This document shows positions 13,507 through 29,245 of a stretch of DNA of 31,291 nt, piece by piece. The DNA is from a virus. The notes beneath the pieces were generated by a model. That model saw nothing but the letters and a program-made list of their open reading frames with translations. It did no database searches and was not told the origin of the DNA. Both the position numbers and the translations under genes were made by a program. Positions within the stretch are counted from its first letter, which is position 1; each line of letters starts with the position of its first letter. The stretch is from positions 1-31,291 of the IMG/VR virus record IMGVR_UViG_3300032893_000220; one strand, written 5' to 3'.

Positions 13507-13798
13507 CCAAGAGGAAAAGGCCAAGGAAAAGATGCGGCAGGATATCATCGATATTCAGGCGCTTCGTAACTTCGAACCATTCAATAGGTATTTCGTTCGA
13601 CGGCTGAAAGAGAAACATGCTGAAATTGAAAAGCGCTTTAGAGATGATCCGGCTGAAAAGTGCTCATACGAAGAGCGCGAGATTCTGCGCAGGCTAATGA
13701 AAGAGTACGAAGATATTCTTCGTATGATGGAGCGCGAGGAAGTTACCTGTAAATCAAGCCTTGGCGGCAATCTTGCTGGGGCTGCTAAATGGGTTTAG
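13496..13798 (+). CDS. coiled-coil small phage protein, 100 aa
   Basis: A highly charged helical protein. The order RQDIIDIQALRNFEPFNRYFVRRLKEKH, FRDDPAEKCSYEEREILRRLMKEY and MMEREE resembles, from memory, an uncharacterised protein found in many phages (QxLRxSEPFxRYxLRRL, DPPxKCxxxEREALRR). It overlaps the previous gene by 11 bp. Its last 45 bp run over the end of the converging receiver-domain gene. Function unknown. Confidence 0.7.
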   Translation: MEINQEEKAKEKMRQDIIDIQALRNFEPFNRYFVRRLKEKHAEIEKRFRDDPAEKCSYEEREILRRLMKEYEDILRMMEREEVTCKSSLGGNLAGAAKWV

Positions 13799-14257
13799 AT
13801 TGGCCGGCATTCTGACGTTGTGCATGGCAAGCGCTAGTCGAACACTGTCGATAGTTATTGGTTTCTCGTCGATGCAGACAGGCCCGTGCTCTGTAATTCC
13901 TGTGACATTTAGGAATTGGCCTGAGATTAAAACCACCGGCTGGGGTGGCCATAGCTTGCGAATTTTTTCTAGCACCTCCATCCCACTTGAATCAGGCAGG
14001 CGCATATCGAGAAATATTAGATCAAACGGATGGGTAGTTACTCCAGTTTGAAATCTGCGCTCGTACATCTTTTGGTATAGTTCAGTGGCCTTTGACCCTG
14101 AGTTCGCGGTGCTGACGCTAAGGCCAAACGATGTGAGCATCTTCCGTATTACTTCAAGAATCATGTCATCATCATCTACGACCATTATTTCAGGGGGTAC
14201 AATCCAGTGGCGTACTAGGTCGTCTATGACCTGCACTGTATTGTTTGGGAGATTCAT
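13754..14257 (-). CDS. stand-alone response-regulator receiver (REC) protein, 167 aa
   Basis: I start at ATG 14257, eight bases after the previous stop; the frame is open to 14533 but that part overlaps another gene. The REC fold is complete: IMVVDDDD gives the acidic pair (D28/D29), FDLIFLDMRLPDSSG gives phospho-acceptor D84, VLISGQ gives S112 and DEKPIT gives K132. No output domain follows, only a 34-residue Pro/Ser/Ala tail. Such proteins take phosphate from a histidine kinase and signal by protein contact. No kinase is visible in the window, so it may plug into a host pathway. Its 3' end overlaps a converging gene by 45 bp. Confidence 0.88.
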   Translation of the reverse strand: MNLPNNTVQVIDDLVRHWIVPPEIMVVDDDDMILEVIRKMLTSFGLSVSTANSGSKATELYQKMYERRFQTGVTTHPFDLIFLDMRLPDSSGMEVLEKIRKLWPPQPVVLISGQFLNVTGITEHGPVCIDEKPITIDSVRLALAMHNVRMPANLNPFSSPSKIAAKA

Positions 14258-14264
14258 GGGTGGA

Positions 14265-14627
14265 TTACGGTAGCAATTTCTTGATGAGTGCTTCGGCCAG
14301 TTTACCAAGCATTCCGCTAGCCAACGTGGTAATAATAAACACAGCAATGCCAGAGTAAAGCGTGTATCGCATTGTGAGCGATTTTTTCCACCGCCGAACC
14401 CGTATGAGCTCCATCTCGAATTTGCGTTGCTGGCGGTTTGTTTCGATTGCTGCCTGAATGAGCCAGTCAACTTTTTGAGCGATAACATAAAATCCAAGAA
14501 GTAACTTTTGGTCACGTTTGTTGAAATCAGCAATATCAGATGCTGGCACGCTAGGCGAGAATTCTGGTGGTTTTAACACAGGCGTTGTAAGGCCATCTTC
14601 ATCGACGTCGTCGTTTTCGGGTGACAT
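14265..14627 (-). CDS. single-pass membrane protein, 120 aa (lysis-type candidate)
   Basis: The first 30 residues are acidic and Pro-rich. A helical middle (ADFNKRDQKLLLGFYVIAQKVDWLIQAA, then a basic stretch) precedes one membrane segment at about 89-108 (LYSGIAVFIITTLASGML), followed by an amphipathic KLAEALIKKLLP tail. It lies next to another membrane protein, so it may be a holin-like or membrane-scaffolding phage protein. There is no clear holin family match and only one membrane segment. Confidence 0.55.
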   Translation of the reverse strand: MSPENDDVDEDGLTTPVLKPPEFSPSVPASDIADFNKRDQKLLLGFYVIAQKVDWLIQAAIETNRQQRKFEMELIRVRRWKKSLTMRYTLYSGIAVFIITTLASGMLGKLAEALIKKLLP

Positions 14628-15769: not shown

Positions 15770-18088
15770 TTAGTCATTAGTTGTTTTAGCAGCTAAGTAA
15801 AACGTAGTCCCATCAACCTCCAACTCTATAGTCCGATTTGGTGAGGTTGGTGAAACTGCGGAACTTTTCCCCAACTTCCATATTTTTGCAGTTCCGCCTG
15901 ACGGCGCTCCTGTTTGAATTCCCGGAGGTAAGACCATTACCCCCGTTCCGGTAGGCAGCACCGCCGCAGCACTACCTCCGTGATCTGCTAAATAAAAATC
16001 ATAGGTAGATCCTGTTTTAGCGGTCAGCACAGTTCCGAGTGATGCGGAACTATATAATCTACCCTGTGCATATGAGCCACCTATCATTTCTACACCGGAA
16101 AATTGAGGTAGCGCGTTTGATTTAACGCTTTGATTTAGCCAATCATTAGACGATAAATTACCCGACGCATCGGCTATTATAGCCCCAGCCCCATAAGTGC
16201 TAAATCTGATCACATCCCCAATCCGTAGCCTTTCAGTTCTACTGGTCGCACCGTTGGATGTTGTTGCTATGGCGTAATAACTTCCGTGAGCAGACCCATT
16301 GTAGTTTTCAGATGCGAAGGATATAATAGATGCAGAATTCGCGAACGCACCACCATCATATCCAGAACTAACCATTACTCCGAGTCTATCGCCATTCTGA
16401 ACGGCCGAGGGGGACGTCGCGGTACCCCGTCCTCGATATGAATTAAACCCCGGAGAATCTCCTGCTGAATTACTATACGATTGAAAGGTTAAATAGGATG
16501 ACGAATTTAAAGAAATGCCGAAAATAGTACCTGACTCAAATCCGCTAGAAGGGTCTAACCCAATTCTAAACGTAAGGTCTGACGTACCTGTAAACCAGTT
16601 TTTATTACCGTCATCATAAAACCCATAATTACTTAAAGAACCTTTATTGAGTAGCGCTACATGGAATCCATGTTGGTTACTCACTGCACCGGCTCCAGTA
16701 GCATCGTCAACCCAAGCACCATATAGATTGGTCACGGTCCCAGCATTTATAGAAGCACCGTGGAATAACCCGTATAAATTTGCAGTCACTCCAGAAGACC
16801 CAAAGGCAGGTAGACTTTGGAATCCAACATAATGATCGAAATTGTTTGATCCACTTGTTGTTATTCTGGCATCAAATGAATTATAGGAAACCCCGCCCGA
16901 GCGAGCAAAATTCGATGAATCGGAAAAACAATGTGCATTCCCAGACCCAGAGTTTATGTTCCGGCTTATGGTAAGTTGGGGGTCGACACTATTAACGGCT
17001 CCAAGGGCGCCAATTTTAATGGGGCCAATTAAAACACCTACGGTAGTTAAGTTATTCGACCCCGCCCACGTCGACAGCGCGGTATTCTCCACACTACCAA
17101 GCCCGACATCTGCACTAGTTAGTGTAACCGCACCAGTCCTCCCTGCGACAGAAGTAACCGGAGCCGTAGGGTAGCTTAACTGCGTCCATGAGCTGATTAC
17201 AGATGGCGGTGTACCTGTGATAACCCACGTAGTCCCAAGATCGGTTCGAATACACCAATCACCTTGTTCCCCGACAAGAGCCAGCATTGCCGCCTGATTT
17301 GCAACTGAACCTAGGTACTCGACTATGGCGATAGAGGGAAGTTGAGATGTTAGCAGTTTAGCGCTGGCATCTAGTGTGGCAACTCCAAGCGCTGTGGCCA
17401 TTTCTGTTCGCTTAACCTGTGCGTCATTAGTTACGTTACCAAGTCCTACATCTGTTTTTGTTACCGTTACATCAGAACTGAGTGCATGGCCGTTTACCTG
17501 GCGTGTTGTTGGAACGCCACCAAGTCCAGCCAATGTAATAGCTGCTGCAGCCCCGGCAGGATCTGCTCCTACGTCAGAATAGGTCGGAGTCGAATATACT
17601 AGGTTTCCAGTGCCGTCGTTATGTAGCCATCCTGATGAATTAGCTAGTGATGCGAACGATGAAAGCTTAGAACTGAGAGGCTGATATACTGAGCTAAGAT
17701 CAGGAATATCAGAAGCGAGTATAGATCTAAATGTTGGTGTTGCATCGGCGCCGCTTGATGGCCCCGAAAGGAATGTCTTTTGAGGCTGATTCGTAAGCGC
17801 GAATGTTAACGCTGGGGTCGTTGTGGGTGTAGCAACGCTGGATGAAAACAATGGCGATAAGTCCCCTGCAGTAAAATTAGTAACAGTTCCTGATCCACCA
17901 CCTCCACCAGTAGCGTTTAGCGTGTCACCTGATAGGGTTAAATTTGTTCCAACCTTAACCCTGAACGGACGCTTACTTGAATCAAACCCCCAGAGTGAGT
18001 TTGCATCTGGGGCTATAAATCTGTCTTCGTAGGCCGGATGTGGCGTTACGTGTGTGACTTGTGAAACCTTTACATCATCAACATTCAC
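15770..18088 (-). CDS. tail fibre-like protein, 772 aa
   Basis: A long Ser/Thr/Gly/Asn-rich beta-structured protein. The start is GTG 18088, immediately after the upstream TGA. The head contains LSGDTLNATGGGGGSGTVTNFTAGDLSPLF, seen in many phage fibre proteins. Two fibre-type repeats follow: VNGHALSSDVTVTKTDVGLGNVTN and VAGRTGAVTLTSADVGLGSVENTALSTW. The C-terminal 40 residues (WKLGKSSAVSPTS..TIELEVDGTTFYLAA) look like a trimerisation tip. It probably binds a host receptor. It ends a block of four virion-surface genes. Confidence 0.8.
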   Translation of the reverse strand: MNVDDVKVSQVTHVTPHPAYEDRFIAPDANSLWGFDSSKRPFRVKVGTNLTLSGDTLNATGGGGGSGTVTNFTAGDLSPLFSSSVATPTTTPALTFALTNQPQKTFLSGPSSGADATPTFRSILASDIPDLSSVYQPLSSKLSSFASLANSSGWLHNDGTGNLVYSTPTYSDVGADPAGAAAAITLAGLGGVPTTRQVNGHALSSDVTVTKTDVGLGNVTNDAQVKRTEMATALGVATLDASAKLLTSQLPSIAIVEYLGSVANQAAMLALVGEQGDWCIRTDLGTTWVITGTPPSVISSWTQLSYPTAPVTSVAGRTGAVTLTSADVGLGSVENTALSTWAGSNNLTTVGVLIGPIKIGALGAVNSVDPQLTISRNINSGSGNAHCFSDSSNFARSGGVSYNSFDARITTSGSNNFDHYVGFQSLPAFGSSGVTANLYGLFHGASINAGTVTNLYGAWVDDATGAGAVSNQHGFHVALLNKGSLSNYGFYDDGNKNWFTGTSDLTFRIGLDPSSGFESGTIFGISLNSSSYLTFQSYSNSAGDSPGFNSYRGRGTATSPSAVQNGDRLGVMVSSGYDGGAFANSASIISFASENYNGSAHGSYYAIATTSNGATSRTERLRIGDVIRFSTYGAGAIIADASGNLSSNDWLNQSVKSNALPQFSGVEMIGGSYAQGRLYSSASLGTVLTAKTGSTYDFYLADHGGSAAAVLPTGTGVMVLPPGIQTGAPSGGTAKIWKLGKSSAVSPTSPNRTIELEVDGTTFYLAAKTTND

Positions 18089-18373
18089 TCAGGATGAGGA
18101 TTTGAACCACACCTTTGTGTTGGTTAAGTCATTGTAATCGTTAGGCCTCTGCACGCCTTCTGACGTAGCGGCGGTACTGGTCAATAGCTGCCAAAGTTGA
18201 GAAGTCCCATCCGACGCCTGTATCCATTGGCGAATGGCAGGCGCGATAAGATTTACCGTTGCCACAGCCGCAAGATCGGCCAGCGATGTGATCCCTGGAT
18301 CAATCGACGCTGATGGTCCAGACCCAGGGGTTCCTGGCGGATTATAGACTGCGCGGCCTGGGCGGGTTTTCAT
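18089..18373 (-). CDS. small virion-associated phage protein, 94 aa
   Basis: Gly/Pro-rich N-terminus (PPGTPGSGPSASIDPGITSLADLAAVA) followed by a beta-rich part with IRQWIQASDGTSQLWQLLTSTA and QRPNDYNDLTNTKVWF. The final block resembles, from memory, small phage proteins ending in RPxDYNxTNAKVWxxxS that precede fibre genes. It may be a fibre base or chaperone. No Shine-Dalgarno site precedes ATG 18373; the stop abuts the fibre GTG. Confidence 0.65.
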   Translation of the reverse strand: MKTRPGRAVYNPPGTPGSGPSASIDPGITSLADLAAVATVNLIAPAIRQWIQASDGTSQLWQLLTSTAATSEGVQRPNDYNDLTNTKVWFKSSS

Positions 18374-18458: not shown

Positions 18459-19670
18459 TTAAAATGAAGAATATACTGTAACTTGATTCTGACTTCCTAA
18501 TTCCGCCATTGCCTGATTCATTTCGGAGATATAATGACCAAAATTAGTATAAGCGGTATAAGTTGCAGCAATTCCTGTTGCTATGAGAGTGTTATTATGC
18601 ACGATTAGCAACGGACTGCCGGAGTCCCCGCTTGAAGTCTCCACTTGTTCCTGATTATTATTATCGTAATAGGGCATCCAGCGGGAATCGTTCTCAACGT
18701 TAGCACTTTGATATTGATATGCCGGGTCGTTTAACAATTTGGAATGTACGGTAGAGGGATCGCCTTGGACGAAATCAGCAGGACTAATTAGTGTGGTAAA
18801 TAAATTATTGTAATGGTTGGACCAAATTGTGTAAAATCTGCCGTTGGGAACTTTCAGGTAGAAGTCGCTTGGAATGACTTGAAGTATGTCCAATGTGGTT
18901 ATTGGACTACTTAAGAGATATAGTCTAATGTCTCCAAGGGCAATAGAGCTATTGTCGGAATCTATATGTCCAATAATAGTGCGAGTTATTACTGTATTAT
19001 TCAAATCTAAAAAATATACAGTTGTCCCATTAGGAGATAAATTAGCATGTTTGGCTTGTACTATAACATCAGGAGCTAGCAGCGAAAACCGTAGTGCCCC
19101 ATTCATACTCAATGCGGTAAGACCGCTACAACCATAAATAGGACTTGTCGTATTCCAAAAATTCTGAATGCCAGAATCTGGCCAACTGCCAGTCATCAAA
19201 GCGCGACCCGATTGAGTATTTTTACCTATACATAAATTTAACAAGGCTTCCCTAAGTAGATTAAGTAAGGAATCTGAAACCGCACTATAAAAAGTATCAA
19301 TATTGCGAGAAAATAAACTGAGAGAGAAATTGTATTGTCTACCCGAAAGGCAATGGAATGTAACATTAGCCGGGGTAAATACTTCAAAATCACTTGTTGC
19401 ATCCCCGACCGTAGAAGACAATATGAAATCCGTCAAATTAGCGTCGGATGTATTTAAAACACAATTAGATATCTGTTCTTTGGCGTGCTGATAAGCTTCT
19501 TTTAAGTATATGAAATAGTTATATACTTGACGCGTCCGATCAAAAATCGTATCGAAATCTGTGATCTGCTTATCTATTCGTGTAGGTTCTCTATACGAAT
19601 AGTCCCCTCCTGTGGATAGAGCAGGCAGTTTTTGCTCTTTTACGCTCAAGCACCAGGGGAATATAGACAT
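18459..19670 (-). CDS. trypsin-like (chymotrypsin-fold) serine protease in the virion gene block, 403 aa
   Basis: The C-terminal half has a full catalytic set in the right order: His208 in DVIVQAKHANLS, Asp247 in SIALGDIRLYLL and Ser350 in SSGDSGSPLL. GDSGSP is the S1-family serine signature. VYFLDLNNTVITRTIIG after the His fits the barrel strands. The first 180 residues are helical and unique (KEAYQHAKEQISNCV), with no signal peptide at the start. From memory, similar proteins occur in Verrucomicrobiota and their phages. Lying between a beta-helix and fibre gene it is probably virion-bound and cleaves host surface proteins or matures the fibre. The gene is A+T-richer than its neighbours. No ribosome site. 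Confidence 0.78.
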   Translation of the reverse strand: MSIFPWCLSVKEQKLPALSTGGDYSYREPTRIDKQITDFDTIFDRTRQVYNYFIYLKEAYQHAKEQISNCVLNTSDANLTDFILSSTVGDATSDFEVFTPANVTFHCLSGRQYNFSLSLFSRNIDTFYSAVSDSLLNLLREALLNLCIGKNTQSGRALMTGSWPDSGIQNFWNTTSPIYGCSGLTALSMNGALRFSLLAPDVIVQAKHANLSPNGTTVYFLDLNNTVITRTIIGHIDSDNSSIALGDIRLYLLSSPITTLDILQVIPSDFYLKVPNGRFYTIWSNHYNNLFTTLISPADFVQGDPSTVHSKLLNDPAYQYQSANVENDSRWMPYYDNNNQEQVETSSGDSGSPLLIVHNNTLIATGIAATYTAYTNFGHYISEMNQAMAELGSQNQVTVYSSF

Positions 19671-19682
19671 TAGTATGTAATG

Positions 19683-21080
19683 TTAATTCCAGCCAGAGGG
19701 TGAAATCGCACAGAAGCCATCAGCTAATGTGCTACGCGCATAGGATAAATTTGCTGGTGTACCCCAATTCGACGGCAAAGAACAGCAGAATAGATCTACT
19801 GTACCGGCAGCAGCAAGCGGCATAGGAGCGGTAAAAGTGCAATTTCTGAATCTTGGCTTACTCCCGCCCGCAATGGTTTGATTCCCACTCGGAGTAACAG
19901 TAGCGCCCGACACTAAAATAGAACCTATTGTAAGGCCCAGCAATGTAACAGTCCCGCCAACAACAGCCTGCGCTGTAAACCCTAAACTGTTCGCTGTTGA
20001 GAAGGAAATCTTACAATTATAGAAAAAAGCCGATCCGTTTATGGATGATTGAGTATCGGCAACTTTGACAGTTATATTATTATATATTCCATCAATAATA
20101 GAAGCCCCAGCATACAGCGATACGTCAGTATTTATAAACTGTGCTCCGCTTAGCCCGCAACTCTGGTCATCAGTCGTTCCGTAAAAAGTAACATGTTTGC
20201 CTATGGCAAGCTCCGAAGGAATATAGCAATCTAAAAAAACGCATCCTGTAGTAAGTATTGAAACGCCCCGGAAAGCGTGATCGAACGAACAATTATAAAA
20301 TTCCAATCCACTATCAAATTGAGGCCCGCTTGTTGCACCGCCTCCGTTTACAATGTTAATACCCACGAAATTACAGTCATCAAAACGTATATTGCGAACC
20401 GGGTTGACTGAGTTTTGAGGGAAACGAATTGCGCTTGAGTGATCGTCTGCGTCCGCTGTATTGGCGGTAGAAGCGTATAATTGTTGAAAAGTTATTCCTC
20501 GGAACCAGAGTCCAGAGCCATGATTAGCAGTGCCGTCATCCGCGCTGATCACAACAGGCGCACCCCCATCAGCAGATTGCGTCCCTCGAATCGTCACTCC
20601 AGTACCTAATGCGAACAGATAAATAAAAGGTGTATCAAATGCTAAGTAGCTAGCACCAGTATCTATCACCGCAGGCGGCGCGATGATGATAACAGGGTTT
20701 GCCGCCGATTTTGCTGCCCCATTCGGGGTTTTAGATCGAGCGGTAGTCAATGCAGCTTGAAGATTGGTGAAATTGGTAGACGGACTACTTGAAACTTGTA
20801 CCATCATGAAATTTTCACCTGTCCAGTTAGGAAAGGTGGTTGGATCTAAAAGGCCGTCAGTCCCAATCTTAAATCCAGCGTTGAATAACGCATATGGCGT
20901 AATACTAGTAGTGGTGTCTAAGCCCGCTATAACCTGACTTGGTGAAGACGCGACAAATTGCCCTAAAATTGTAGAGCAAGGAAACCGTTGCAAAACATTC
21001 GGACTTCCGGGACGATATCCGACGAAATAATCCGTACTTTGTGGGGTAGAGGCATTAAATTGTGCGAAGTTTGTGCTCAT
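19683..21080 (-). CDS. beta-helix tailspike-like protein, 465 aa
   Basis: After a short N-terminal head (FAQFNASTPQSTDYFVGY), the protein carries a long series of beta strands and turns typical of a right-handed parallel beta-helix: GVTIRGTQSAD, GLWFRGITFQQLY, IRFDDCNFVGINI, LEFYNCSFDHAF, GCVFLDCYIPS and PRFRNCTFTAPMPL. Asn and Cys stacks recur (xxNC/DCxF). Such folds occur in phage tailspikes and polysaccharide-binding or -degrading proteins. No catalytic residues can be picked. Probably part of the adsorption apparatus with the fibre and protease genes. Confidence 0.75.
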   Translation of the reverse strand: MSTNFAQFNASTPQSTDYFVGYRPGSPNVLQRFPCSTILGQFVASSPSQVIAGLDTTTSITPYALFNAGFKIGTDGLLDPTTFPNWTGENFMMVQVSSSPSTNFTNLQAALTTARSKTPNGAAKSAANPVIIIAPPAVIDTGASYLAFDTPFIYLFALGTGVTIRGTQSADGGAPVVISADDGTANHGSGLWFRGITFQQLYASTANTADADDHSSAIRFPQNSVNPVRNIRFDDCNFVGINIVNGGGATSGPQFDSGLEFYNCSFDHAFRGVSILTTGCVFLDCYIPSELAIGKHVTFYGTTDDQSCGLSGAQFINTDVSLYAGASIIDGIYNNITVKVADTQSSINGSAFFYNCKISFSTANSLGFTAQAVVGGTVTLLGLTIGSILVSGATVTPSGNQTIAGGSKPRFRNCTFTAPMPLAAAGTVDLFCCSLPSNWGTPANLSYARSTLADGFCAISPSGWN

Positions 21081-21081
21081 G

Positions 21082-21228
21082 TTATGAGAAATTTATGATT
21101 ATATCGCCAGTGAATGTAACTAATGGATCGCCTTGAAATGTAACTATTTGATCAGATGGAGGCGGAGGTGGCGTAGAACTAGGCAAGCCACTTGTCGCTA
21201 TACTAAGATCTGTCCCTAGGGATGGCAT
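21082..21228 (-). CDS. small proline-rich phage protein, 48 aa
   Basis: ATG 21228 overlaps the upstream TAA as TAATG. The product starts MPSLGTDLSIATSGLPSS, has a run TPPPPPSDQ and ends in a beta-rich VTFQGDPLVTFTGDIIINFS. The Pro-linker plus short beta tail is typical of small virion connector peptides. It is not homologous to anything I recognise, and the evidence is overlap and context. Confidence 0.5.
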   Translation of the reverse strand: MPSLGTDLSIATSGLPSSTPPPPPSDQIVTFQGDPLVTFTGDIIINFS

Positions 21229-21515
21229 TATGATCTATATGCTATTACTGAGCCAGTTGCTAGTGTTATAGATGTGTATTTTCCGTAGATTGTAGTTCCG
21301 GCTGCGAGTGTTACTGTGCTCATATCAGCCCCATCATTTTCTGGGCATATGAGTGTTGAGAATGTACATGCAGCTATGCACTGTATTGCATTCCATTCGC
21401 CCGTTTTAGGGGTTGTATCGTTGATGAATGTAATTCCGTTTTCACCTTTTAAGTTTGCGACGGATACGAGTTGTGCTGCTGTTTTGGGGCTAGACCCGTA
21501 GAGGTGTGTGCTCAT
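21228..21515 (-). CDS. probable virion decoration-type protein, 95 aa
   Basis: Contains GITFINDTTPKTGEWNAIQCIAACTFSTLICPEN and TVTLAAGTTIYGKYTSITLATGSVIAYR. The order INDTTxxTGxWxAI ... LxAGTxIYGxFTxITLxSGxVxAYR is, from memory, frequent in uncharacterised phage structural proteins. It is beta-rich and soluble. It sits between neck and tailspike genes, so it is probably a minor virion component. An AGG element lies a little ahead of ATG 21515. Confidence 0.65.
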   Translation of the reverse strand: MSTHLYGSSPKTAAQLVSVANLKGENGITFINDTTPKTGEWNAIQCIAACTFSTLICPENDGADMSTVTLAAGTTIYGKYTSITLATGSVIAYRS

Positions 21516-23524: not shown

Positions 23525-25012
23525 TTACGAAGTAACGGTTGGTAGGCCGAGTTCAGGGTAGCTGATTGCGTGGCGGAGGCGAACGAAGCCAGGGTACTTA
23601 CCGTTGACATTCTTGCGGAGTTGCTGACCGAAGACTGTCAGGATGTACTTGCGGGTAACGAACGCATCGACGAACCACTGATCACGCTTGTTACGGTATT
23701 TGCCGTAACCGCGGAGCATGGACATTGCGCCCATCATCACGGTGTCACCGATCGGAACGCCCTTGGCGTTACAGAGGATGATCGTGGCGCCAATCGGGTG
23801 TGTCTGCGTGTGGCGGTTAGCCCATACGCCGGTATTCCAAACGACATCGCCGATTTGGATGAGAGCAACTGGACCATTCTGCACAGGCGCGAGGCGCTTT
23901 GTGATCGTGATCTTGTTACCGTTGTTGCCGGTCGTGTAGGCGTACATACCGACTTTGCCTGGGTCAACGGCAGCATTGCGCGGGTTGACGATGAGCAGGT
24001 ACTGCTCGGTAGATCCGGGCGAGTAGATGTCATTCGGCAGGAACTCGAACGCGAAGTTCGGGAAGAAGCGGAAGTACTCGATGTTGGTGATCGCAGCAGC
24101 AGCGGCAGAACCACCACCAGTGATGTCGAACGCCGCGGTACCCGCGGTGATTGCAGTACCAAGGAACGCCTTAGCATTGAACCACGAGCCAGACCATGCG
24201 TAGCCGTCTGGATCGATCGGGTTGAACTCAGTTATACGATGACCGTCGATATCGACGTAACCGCCTTGGAACAGAGGATTCTCATCGTAAGCAGCTTCAC
24301 GGGGAGCGGCTTCGCGGAGGACTTGCTTGTAGTCCGAATCCTGTTTCAGTGAAAACAGTCCGGGAGTCGTACCGACAACGCAGTACTTGTAGACCGGCGA
24401 TCCCTTGATTGTGGCGACTTCACAAGGACGGCCACCCATTGGCTTGAGTGCCTGGCCCATGTAGAGAATGTCGTTATAAACGAGGCCATCTGCTGTGAGA
24501 AGGTTGGCTTCGCTGGTCTTGCCGCCGCCGATCAGTAGATTTTCAGGTCCACCCTTCAGAACGAAGGTCATGCCGGCGCGGGCAGATTTTTCACGGCCCA
24601 TCCACTTGCCGAGCTCTTCAGCCTGGCCATCGACGAGCTCACCTTGCATACCCATATACTCGTCGGTACGGAGCGATGCAGAGGCGGCATTGCGGAGATA
24701 ATCGCAATCCAGCTCGTTGTTGTTGATAACGTCTGTTGCGAAATCATCCTGATCGATGAAGAGACCTTCACCGGACTTGCCCTTGTTGTAGTAACCGGCG
24801 CGGGAGGTGATGCGGAATTTTAGACCGCGATCAACCGACGTGTCGTTAATTGTCATGATAGGCGAATCTTTTGATTCGCCTTCGAATCTAGCAAAGAAGT
24901 CTTCCGTTTGTTCAAACGTATCGACCGTCTTCTGCCAGAGAATGCGTACCGACTCCGGCGACATTGCTGCCAACGCGGTAGCGGTATTATTTGTGCCTGG
25001 TTCCCAGCTCAT
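23525..25012 (-). CDS. major capsid protein (N4-gp56-like / DUF4043-type candidate), 495 aa
   Basis: Shell protein of the phage head. Length, position between a scaffold-like gene and neck genes, and sequence character (Ala/Gly-rich, YNKGKSGEGLF, MGREKSARAGMTFVLKGG, NIEYFRFFPNFAFEFLPNDIY, VFGQQLRKNVNGKYPGFVRLRHAISYPELGLPT) fit N4-gp56/DUF4043-type capsid proteins, which keep an HK97-like fold; the subfamily is from memory. A long antisense frame exists but is a shadow. The 70-bp leader has TATAAT-like boxes and no Shine-Dalgarno sequence, unusual for the most abundant virion protein. Confidence 0.82.
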   Translation of the reverse strand: MSWEPGTNNTATALAAMSPESVRILWQKTVDTFEQTEDFFARFEGESKDSPIMTINDTSVDRGLKFRITSRAGYYNKGKSGEGLFIDQDDFATDVINNNELDCDYLRNAASASLRTDEYMGMQGELVDGQAEELGKWMGREKSARAGMTFVLKGGPENLLIGGGKTSEANLLTADGLVYNDILYMGQALKPMGGRPCEVATIKGSPVYKYCVVGTTPGLFSLKQDSDYKQVLREAAPREAAYDENPLFQGGYVDIDGHRITEFNPIDPDGYAWSGSWFNAKAFLGTAITAGTAAFDITGGGSAAAAAITNIEYFRFFPNFAFEFLPNDIYSPGSTEQYLLIVNPRNAAVDPGKVGMYAYTTGNNGNKITITKRLAPVQNGPVALIQIGDVVWNTGVWANRHTQTHPIGATIILCNAKGVPIGDTVMMGAMSMLRGYGKYRNKRDQWFVDAFVTRKYILTVFGQQLRKNVNGKYPGFVRLRHAISYPELGLPTVTS

Positions 25013-26372: not shown

Positions 26373-27782
26373 TTGGATTGCGTGGCAAATCTGGACCTCC
26401 AAAACAGGGCACCATCGGTCACGCGATTACCCGACTTTAGGCAACGCGTAGAGCGCAGGTATGATGTATTGAATTTTATACCGAAAGATCCAGCTAAGAT
26501 TCTTGCAGAATGCTGGCTTCCATTAGGTACAACAGATGTTGCTTATACTAATTGCTATCTAATCGATCAGCGAGTTGAGGGGATTGGCGGTGGCCATTCA
26601 CATGGGAATTATTATGAGCCAAATAAGTTTCCACCTGTTTTGCTTAGAACATTCGAAGAGCTTAGTCCTACCGGCGAGACTCAAGTTGGCCAACCTGGAG
26701 TTGAGCTAGACCAGTATAACAATAGGATCGTAACGATAGACTATCTTCAGCTCAATGTTGGCACTTCGACCTACCAGATCCCTGGTACAACGCCAGCGCC
26801 ATCCCCATTTAGTGACTGCATCTTAAAAACGGAGGAACGAAAGAACGATGGTACGCTGATGCGGATACATAGGACCTATATTAGCAGTGGCCAGCTTACA
26901 CAGACAGATGACATAAAGTTTGGGGGAAAAGTTTTAGTAAGATCCGTTAGCTCTATAGGAGTTGAGCCAGTAACGCCAGTTGGGTGGACAGTTATAACGC
27001 AGAATGTCGAATTTGTTAACGGACTTAAGGTATATCGATATGAGTTCGTACTTGGAGATGGATTAATAGAAGAGGCAATAAACTCAAGGCAGGATGGCCT
27101 TCGCGAGGTAACAGATATTTCATTTGGAACAAAAGTAATTCCTGCCGGTGTCGTTATTAGAGACGAGTACCGAGAGTCTGATGGTTATAAAATATACACA
27201 GTAACGTCAATTCAGAGTGATAGTGGAAGCGCTCCAACAAGCGGATCATATTCTGTTCAGCGCATAGTTGACTTTCCTTACCCAGGAAGAGCGAAGTTAT
27301 TTACCGAGACGTATAACAGCAGGACATCATTGGATATTTACATGAGTCCTCCTGTGCAAATGCGAGTCGTAGCCACTATATCCGTCTCATATCAGAATAC
27401 TAATACGTTTTCTGTTCCAAGTGATTTATGGGCGCCAAAAGATTGGGCTGTTTCTCGGTCTCAATGGATTAGTTTCGGAAATAATCCGCACAATAAGGTT
27501 GAGGCGTTGCACGGATATTTGTTTATAGGATCTTCCTCTGCCACAGTTACTGCATCAAATGTTGCGCCAATAGATGCGGCCATTTTCGGGAATCCAATTT
27601 ATGGAGGAAGCACTGCTAAAATAACGTTGAGTGGTGGCCCTACTGATCCAGCCGGTACAACCAAAACATTGGAGGCATATCTCGATGAGAGACCTGCATT
27701 CATAAGTGTAACGGGAACTAAGTACTATAGATTAACAACAGTATCTATAGAAATTCCTACACCGCCATCTCTACCTGTTTAA
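26373..27782 (+). CDS. large phage structural-type protein, 469 aa
   Basis: The first usable codon is TTG 26373, since TGA lies in frame at 26358; GTG 26382 is the alternative. The start region (VANLDLQNRAPSVTRLPDFRQRVERRYDVLNFIPKDPAKILAECWLP) resembles, from memory, a family of uncharacterised proteins from freshwater phages, which share long beta-rich repeats like FGGKVLVRSVSSIG. The rest is strongly beta-structured (VQRIVDFPYPGRAKLFTE, AKITLSGGPTDPAGTTKTLEAYL). Probably a virion surface or tail protein. A+T-richer than the replication genes. Confidence 0.65.
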   Translation: MDCVANLDLQNRAPSVTRLPDFRQRVERRYDVLNFIPKDPAKILAECWLPLGTTDVAYTNCYLIDQRVEGIGGGHSHGNYYEPNKFPPVLLRTFEELSPTGETQVGQPGVELDQYNNRIVTIDYLQLNVGTSTYQIPGTTPAPSPFSDCILKTEERKNDGTLMRIHRTYISSGQLTQTDDIKFGGKVLVRSVSSIGVEPVTPVGWTVITQNVEFVNGLKVYRYEFVLGDGLIEEAINSRQDGLREVTDISFGTKVIPAGVVIRDEYRESDGYKIYTVTSIQSDSGSAPTSGSYSVQRIVDFPYPGRAKLFTETYNSRTSLDIYMSPPVQMRVVATISVSYQNTNTFSVPSDLWAPKDWAVSRSQWISFGNNPHNKVEALHGYLFIGSSSATVTASNVAPIDAAIFGNPIYGGSTAKITLSGGPTDPAGTTKTLEAYLDERPAFISVTGTKYYRLTTVSIEIPTPPSLPV

Positions 27783-27786
27783 TAGT

Positions 27787-28068
27787 ATGCCAAGTGAACC
27801 AGATGATGATAAGTTTGTACCATCTTCTTGGATAGAAGATAAGAAAAAGCCTATCCTTCCAGATCATAATCCATTTATTGAGGCAAGGAAGAGAACAGAT
27901 GATGCACTAGCCAGGATTGCAAGAGCAACCGAAATGGCTAATCAGGTTAAGAGTACGTATGATGATATCAATAATATCATAGCTAGGATTAATCGCATAG
28001 AACAGATGATCGAGGGTGCATCAATATCTTGTAGCGGAAGTACGATTACGCTTACATGGGGAACATAG
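27787..28068 (+). CDS. coiled-coil linker protein, 93 aa
   Basis: An acidic N-terminus (PSEPDDDKFVPSSWIEDKKK) is followed by a long helix (DALARIARATEMANQVKSTYDDINNIIARINRIEQMIEGA) with heptad-like Ile/Leu/Ala spacing, then a short beta strand (ISCSGSTITLTWGT). It looks like a trimeric coiled-coil stalk between virion proteins. It ends one base before the ATG of the next gene, so the two are cotranscribed. No ribosome site. Confidence 0.6.
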   Translation: MPSEPDDDKFVPSSWIEDKKKPILPDHNPFIEARKRTDDALARIARATEMANQVKSTYDDINNIIARINRIEQMIEGASISCSGSTITLTWGT

Positions 28069-28069
28069 T

Positions 28070-29245
28070 ATGGCATCGTCAATTTCATTCACTCCATGCG
28101 GATGCTGTAGCGGTTCCCCTGCATGGTTCTGGGGTTATGAGTATAGCGGTAATGCCGGGAATGGCGCCGATGATGAAGTGGTTTATACTCCAGGTCCCTA
28201 TCTTGGAGTCTCGGGGTTGTTGAAAATATTGCCTGGGGCAAATGGTGGTGGAAATTCATGGGGGATTGGGTTAAAATCTGATCATACTCTATGGTTTTGG
28301 GGTTCTAATAGATATGGATTAAATGGGAACGGTTCAGATGATGGTTGGACTATATATGTAGCATATCACATACTTAGTGGAACATTTTGGTATGATATAT
28401 CATCATGCCCAATTGAATTTGCCGGGGCTTATTTTCATGCAATTGCGATTAAAGATAATGGTACATTGTGGTTCTGGGGTAATAATAACGCAGGTTCCGA
28501 CGGTAGCGGTACTACGGATAGTTTAATCCATACACCGACCCAGATAGGTTTAGCAAACGATTGGATAAGTGTTGTTGCCTCAGAATATAACGATATAGCT
28601 TTAAAGTCTGATGGTACTTTATGGTTTTGGGGTACAAACGATTATGGCCAAAACGGAACAGGTATTGTTGATAATTTAGTTTACGTACCAACGCAGATCG
28701 GTACGGATACTGATTGGATAGCCGTTTATCTTGCGCTTACTTACGTAATAGCGATAAAAACAGATGGTACCTTGTGGTTTTGGGGTACAAACAGTGGTGG
28801 GCAAAACGGTAGTGGGCTAGATGATGGGTTGGTTTATGCTCCTATGCAAATAGGGTCTGATACTAACTGGATGTCTATATCAGTTTTAATGCAGGGAGCG
28901 GGAGGTTTTGATAGAGCTGGTGTTATTGGTCTTAAAACAGACGGCACGATATGGCATTGGGGGAAGAATGTATATGGTGAAAATGGCTCTGGTGGATCAG
29001 ATGCAGTTGTTCATGTTCCAACTCAGATAGGCGTAGCAAATAATTGGACAAATATATCTGGGAATGGTGTATGTGTAATTGGATTAAAGGCTGATGGGAC
29101 TATATGGTTTTGGGGAACTAATAGCGAAGGCCAAAATGGAAATGGCCTTGAAGATAATTTAATTTACGCGCCCATGCAAATAGGTGCAGCCACTGACTGG
29201 ACTGGTATATTTTCTGGTCCTTTGTGGATTCTTGGGACTAAATAA
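28070..29245 (+). CDS. RCC1-type seven-bladed beta-propeller protein, 391 aa
   Basis: The start is ATG 28070, one base after the previous stop; the frame is open from GTG 28016. Seven copies of a roughly 50-residue repeat centre on (A/L/I)W(F/H)WG-N-YGxNGxG..D..x.P.QIG: examples are LWFWGSNRYGLNGNGSDD, LWFWGTNDYGQNGTG and IWHWGKNVYGENGSGGSD. Seven repeats, with the terminus PLWILGTK completing the last blade, predict a closed RCC1-like propeller. RCC1 repeats usually mediate protein or nucleosome contact. As a secreted-type phage protein it probably binds a receptor or decorates the virion. The gene is A+T-rich and its blades are also similar in DNA. Confidence 0.85.
   Translation: MASSISFTPCGCCSGSPAWFWGYEYSGNAGNGADDEVVYTPGPYLGVSGLLKILPGANGGGNSWGIGLKSDHTLWFWGSNRYGLNGNGSDDGWTIYVAYHILSGTFWYDISSCPIEFAGAYFHAIAIKDNGTLWFWGNNNAGSDGSGTTDSLIHTPTQIGLANDWISVVASEYNDIALKSDGTLWFWGTNDYGQNGTGIVDNLVYVPTQIGTDTDWIAVYLALTYVIAIKTDGTLWFWGTNSGGQNGSGLDDGLVYAPMQIGSDTNWMSISVLMQGAGGFDRAGVIGLKTDGTIWHWGKNVYGENGSGGSDAVVHVPTQIGVANNWTNISGNGVCVIGLKADGTIWFWGTNSEGQNGNGLEDNLIYAPMQIGAATDWTGIFSGPLWILGTK

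Follow-up and report, generated by a model that had tools for sequence, protein, structure and literature searches.

A Predicted Trypsin-Fold Protease Encoded beside a Tailspike-Like Gene, and Its Largely Viral Family

The Locus and Its Structural Block

The window analyzed here is an entire virus record of 31,291 bases, in which the structural genes form a block on the minus strand with the following order: a 401-aa gene, the major head protein, a 116-aa gene, an adaptor of SU10 type (its match lies just under Pfam's cut-off), a 293-aa gene, a 95-aa gene, a 48-aa open reading frame (ORF), a tailspike-like gene, the protease, a 94-aa gene, and a fibre of 772 aa. The features of this block on which we focus are listed below.

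23525-25012, minus strand: major head protein (PHROG match), the query for collecting related phages
21228-21515, minus strand: 95-aa conserved gene, left flank of an accessory slot
21082-21228, minus strand: 48-aa ORF, left border of the slot; its start codon (ATG) shares bases with the 95-aa gene's stop, and L002 and L004 have a similar start
19683-21080, minus strand: P0002, 465-aa putative beta-helix protein resembling the Sf6 tailspike (low-confidence model, Z 14.9)
18459-19670, minus strand: P0001, 403-aa predicted trypsin-fold serine protease (ORF, fold model, family alignment)
18089-18373, minus strand: 94-aa conserved gene, right flank of the slot
15770-18088, minus strand: 772-aa tail fibre or minor tail protein (tail-protein matches)

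The stop of the tailspike-like gene lies 12 bp before the ATG of the protease. The preliminary description of this DNA had located the 403-aa ORF correctly, on what we now specify as the minus strand, and had called it richer in A+T than its neighbors, which it is: with 38.8% G+C overall and a GC3 of 33.9%, against about 43-55% G+C for the surrounding genes, no other gene in the structural block is as rich in A+T, the spike gene having 45.4% G+C. The same description had set the protease between a beta-helix tailspike-like gene and a fibre gene. Its tailspike-like neighbor and its position in an adsorption region stand, whereas the 772-aa fibre is not adjacent but separated from it by the 94-aa gene.

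The space between the 95-aa and 94-aa genes varies among related phages. In L002, L004, and L012, the head proteins of which are 95-96% identical to that of the window, this slot is occupied by a single unrelated gene:

L002, 11975-12901, and L004, 13920-14717: unrelated slot gene of 308 or 265 aa in the closest relatives

In more distant relatives, such as L006, the two flanking genes adjoin and the slot is empty. No protease appeared within the stretches fetched for the 25 relatives collected by head protein. A comparable arrangement was found in contig 172, from a genome of the Verrucomicrobiota sample, which has homologs of the head protein (642 bits), the 401-aa protein, the adaptor, the 293-aa protein, and DnaB, followed downstream by a fibre gene, then by a gene for 515 aa in which SGNH-esterase-like motifs were recognized by eye, and, after a gap of 6 bases, by the gene of a 391-aa protease of the family described below, with the motif GDSGNP. 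Hence, two distant phages of this group have an adhesin or depolymerase plus a protease in the same region, with unrelated partners. Contig 172 also suggests a verrucomicrobial host for the group, with the qualification that metagenome binning can assign a viral contig to the wrong genome; relatives of the head protein were searched for in Planctomycetota genomes and none was found.

Three other genes of the window may be recorded here. An RCC1-repeat protein (28016-29245, plus strand) lies beside a 469-aa gene (26373-27782, plus strand); both run opposite to the structural genes, and the latter is conserved in almost every related phage. A response-regulator receiver domain occurs in a protein of 259 aa (13754-14533, minus strand) that is retained in the close relatives L002, L004, and L012.

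Fold and Catalytic Residues of the Protease

The AlphaFold2 model of P0001 has a mean pLDDT of 69, with most strands of the catalytic core above 80, and divides the protein into the parts given below together with the catalytic codons.

Residues about 9-130: N-terminal beta domain
Residues 135-147: helix
Residues about 155-391: catalytic domain
19047-19049, minus strand: codon of catalytic His208 (family and trypsin alignments)
18930-18932, minus strand: codon of catalytic Asp247 (family and trypsin alignments)
18621-18623, minus strand: codon of catalytic Ser350, within GDSGSP (family and trypsin alignments)

Residues 155-391 of the model align with delta-chymotrypsin (1dlk_B) with a VIA-align Z of 16.0 over 178 residues (rmsd 3.1), and all the top structure matches are proteases of the chymotrypsin fold, Foldseek matching elastase at E 2.5e-7. 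Among viral models, Foldseek returned a full-length match to an uncharacterized protein of an uncultured Caudovirales phage. The proposal of a trypsin-like protease had been tied to a chymotrypsin fold, and the double beta-barrel on which it depended is present in the model. The family profile, run against the PDB, matched trypsins, chymotrypsinogen C, and factor IX at weak E-values (0.003-0.1).

The residues named earlier as the catalytic set, His208, Asp247, and Ser350 with GDSGSP, are all in place and occur in the order His, Asp, Ser, with a long stretch between Asp and Ser. All three are kept in 79 of 79 relatives, and Gly348, the equivalent of Gly193 of the oxyanion hole in the GDSG around the nucleophile, in 75 of 79. 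In a 32-row family alignment, the invariant columns are H208, D247, L253, P267, D349, S350, and P353. When bovine trypsin is placed on the family profile, its His57 and Asp102 fall in the triad columns, as does its Ser195 (GDSGGP) in a second segment. The assignment of the triad thus follows from conservation, alignment, and fold taken together. By predicted fold, triad, and GDSG motif, P0001 is a member of the chymotrypsin-fold serine proteases (MEROPS clan PA, S1 type), with which it has in common the double beta-barrel, the His-Asp-Ser order, the GDSG motif, and the alignment of its triad with that of bovine trypsin. Unlike these proteases, it has an extra N-terminal beta domain followed by a helix, a long Asp-Ser stretch, and a phage adhesin context. 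As a sequence, P0001 lies outside the Pfam families Trypsin and Trypsin_2, although the fold is present; PF00089 and PF13365 did not match it even at E 10. Retention of the triad throughout all 79 relatives would be expected only under selection for catalysis, and P0001 is very probably an active protease. A chance occurrence of the catalytic motif was considered and ruled out by this conservation and by the profile score reported in the next section (E 3e-18).

A Family of Proteases in Phages and Bacteria

Direct searches gave little. P0001 returned nothing usable from Pfam, PHROGs, and NCBIfam, nothing by phmmer from the PDB, and no confirmed relatives in viral contigs, GTDB genomes, phages (at a strict threshold), or plasmids, nor did a two-row alignment of P0001 and P0005 used as query. 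At a lax threshold, tblastn gave one match (E 3), to a hypothetical protein in the podovirus record MW202510.1, covering the GDSGSP region and a common block, NNTVITRT. As a lead we used the motif ISPRH...GDSG[SN]P...DLSxF (ISPRHV), which we took to occur in proteins of environmental viruses, and examined it by pattern scan, profile, and structure. The scan of DNA for this pattern picked out 8 stretches, 7 of them with such a protein, four of the 7 being identical. An alignment of two of the motif proteins then led to 93 viral relatives, 80 of them fetched, and to six loci from bacterial genomes. On a family profile trained on 65 relatives, with P0001 and the MW202510.1 protein left out, P0001 scored 65 bits (E 3e-18), while neither 3000 shuffles nor the reversed ORFs produced a match; P0001 is consequently a divergent but secure member of the family. 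It is among the most divergent members, and the tree leaves its closest relative unsettled because its branch is very long.

With over 90 viral relatives, the family extends also to copies in Verrucomicrobiota, Planctomycetota, and Anabaena. At E 1e-20 it was found in 21 of 288 Verrucomicrobiota genomes, 3 of 294 from Planctomycetota, and 1 of 292 from Cyanobacteriota, seed genomes included, these three phyla being the ones sampled. Inspected by eye, some of the bacterial copies (L117, L119, L120) lie in phage regions, and others (L116, L118, L121) look cellular and secreted, with N-termini resembling signal peptides, as would be expected of an enzyme working outside the cell. The protein from podovirus ct3Et533 (MW202510.1), UOF78081.1, belongs to the same family while being only about 27% identical to P0001; annotated as "hypothetical protein", its gene shares 4 bp with that of an upstream beta-helix protein annotated as rhamnogalacturonan lyase. 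The fold and the chemistry of these proteins are known, and the family is new to Pfam, PHROGs, and NCBIfam. We found no literature on it, including under S-layer and protease, in the open-access papers searched, which is weak evidence of novelty.

Two further features of the membership deserve mention. Some phage-borne or phage-like members (L061, L062, L064, L120) begin with signal-peptide-like sequences, which suggests that the host cell exports some of them. A group of members from marine contigs (L076-L111) are shorter, without the N-terminal domain, and lie beside small genes rather than adhesins; a few are fused to other parts, glycosyltransferase-like in L093 and propeller-like in L105 and L110.

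The N-Terminal Domain

In the model of P0001, beta strands run from residue 9 to 130 at a confidence of about 40-72, preceding the helix, on which S134-L135 is conserved in relatives. Ahead of the catalytic part, these relatives have a helix and domains of Ig-like (Big_2) type: Big_2 (PF02368) matches there at E 8e-4, under its cut-off, one relative (P0010) matches a PHROG of Ig-domain structural proteins, and the family profile picks up intimin and a short tail fibre from a phage in the same region. The preliminary description had regarded the first 180 residues as unique and as a possible anchor to the virion or inhibitory domain. That they lack relatives has to be rejected, given that S134, L135, and the Ig-like region recur, even if the match of P0001 there is weak; the anchoring function, in turn, is consistent with an all-beta domain predicted at modest confidence and with the Big_2 or Ig-like domains of relatives. 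We consider this part a variable, Ig-like domain of surface type rather than a unique one, a view supported for P0001 itself by the model and by a weak similarity in sequence.

The Upstream Partner and Its Counterparts

Sequence searches found no relatives of P0002. Its single-sequence model is poor (mean pLDDT 43.5) and aligns over residues 93-462 with the Sf6 tailspike at a Z of 14.9 over 311 residues, and also with other tailspikes and beta-helix lyases. P0002 is, on this model, likely to be a beta-helix protein with a predicted fold similar to that of the Sf6 tailspike and other phage beta-helix depolymerases; it is a putative enzyme.

In relatives, the protease gene often lies no more than 30 bases from an upstream gene on the same strand, or overlaps it. 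By our own count, the upstream protein is large and adhesin-like in about 22 of the 64 readable cases, several of these being mutually related. A scan of ten of the proteins gave Mtd_N above its cut-off in 5, YadA_head repeats in 1, and a weak endosialidase-barrel match in 1, and a PHROGs search of the upstream proteins added one more tail protein. Genes with Mtd_N-like motifs directly precede 6 of 50 proteases, as opposed to 2 of 522 other genes at the same loci (Fisher p 8e-6, the loci not being fully independent). Two loci (L030, L053) have adhesin-protease pairs in tandem, two in a row. By eye, L094 and L112 combine a beta-helix-like region and the protease in one polypeptide, and other fusions include FN3, LRR-like, LamG-like, and propeller-like parts. 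Partners with YadA-like or beta-roll repeats (L030, L053, L040, L056, L034) have a similar C-terminal region, GDAQ...SNT.NV.LT...IRWVA, next to proteases that are very different. From these associations, we consider it probable that the protease has a function linked to the adhesin.

Where Does the Protease Act?

The reading that we favor is that the protease and the upstream tailspike make up an accessory cassette of two adsorption genes, which were probably gained together. The protease would be displayed on the virion by its beta-rich N-terminal domain, beside a spike that may bind or trim surface polysaccharide, and there it could cut a protein of the envelope or a receptor, thereby easing access or committing the particle; its presence in the virion, its substrate, and the timing are all suppositions of this scheme. 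Whether a virion-associated protease acts in this manner, together with the spike and upon the envelope of the host, not upon proteins of the phage, we judge to be about an even matter. The large marine group of relatives located away from adhesins weighs against it, as does the strong divergence of P0001 from other members. An S-layer or other proteinaceous barrier, which had been suggested as the target, found no support; the open-access literature searched yielded nothing on the family.

The main alternative is a protease of maturation, which would make a single cut, in the adhesin partner or in itself, while the particle is being assembled, perhaps freeing an assembly domain, and would have no part in attack. 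Assembly helpers, too, are encoded immediately behind fibre genes. The gene order is that of a dedicated helper, the protease following its adhesin at once, in many cases with an overlap, and each adhesin of a tandem having its own protease; the Mtd_N segment common to many partners might provide a shared site. Against this speak the unrelated folds of the partners (beta-helix, YadA roll, LRR-like, SGNH-esterase-like), the Ig-like domain that relatives possess themselves, the occasional fusion of relatives to adhesion domains, and the secreted-looking cellular versions that occur without any phage fibre. Self-processing of the 772-aa fibre, proposed previously, has the further difficulty that the consistent partner is the tailspike gene upstream, not the fibre downstream. 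We regard maturation as rather unlikely, and favor action on the envelope over action on the phage's own spike because of the unrelated partner folds, the adhesion-type domain of relatives, the fusions, and the secreted-looking cellular relatives.

Export from the infected or lysogenic cell is a different matter: the enzyme, not being part of the particle, would alter the host surface, by excluding other phages or releasing nutrients. Members such as L061, L064, and L120, as well as the cellular copies, start with signal-peptide-like sequences as this would predict, whereas P0001 and P0002 have none that can be recognized by eye and are encoded in a structural block beside head, adaptor, and fibre genes, so that for the window this explanation seems improbable. 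Least probable is that the trypsin fold serves purely as a structural adaptor for adhesins, for which a precedent is UmbA of the Streptomyces umbrella toxin particles, in which a trypsin-like domain is joined to surface-binding lectins but is described as an inactive adaptor (PMC13274773), as opposed to the His, Asp, and Ser kept intact in 79 of 79 members of the phage family.

Implications for Phage Adsorption

Sugars or peptidoglycan are the main targets of the enzymes known from the tailspikes and tail tips of phages. A large family of active-looking trypsin-fold proteases encoded directly behind tail adhesins would imply that the cutting of proteins is a common step, so far overlooked, either in adsorption or in the maturation of the spike. 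A broader generalization, which we advance tentatively, is that each receptor-binding or depolymerase protein of this kind comes with its own trypsin-fold protease in swappable cassettes that are widespread among environmental phages, proteolysis being as regular a part of host recognition as the cleavage of polysaccharide is for known tailspikes. That several phages of the proposed adhesin-protease class are linked to Verrucomicrobiota and neighboring phyla is, as a joint reading, similarly doubtful at present. The absence of the family from the three general protein libraries searched means that its members are counted as "hypothetical protein" in phage annotation; proteases of this sort could reveal the surface proteins that are used by phages of poorly studied phyla.
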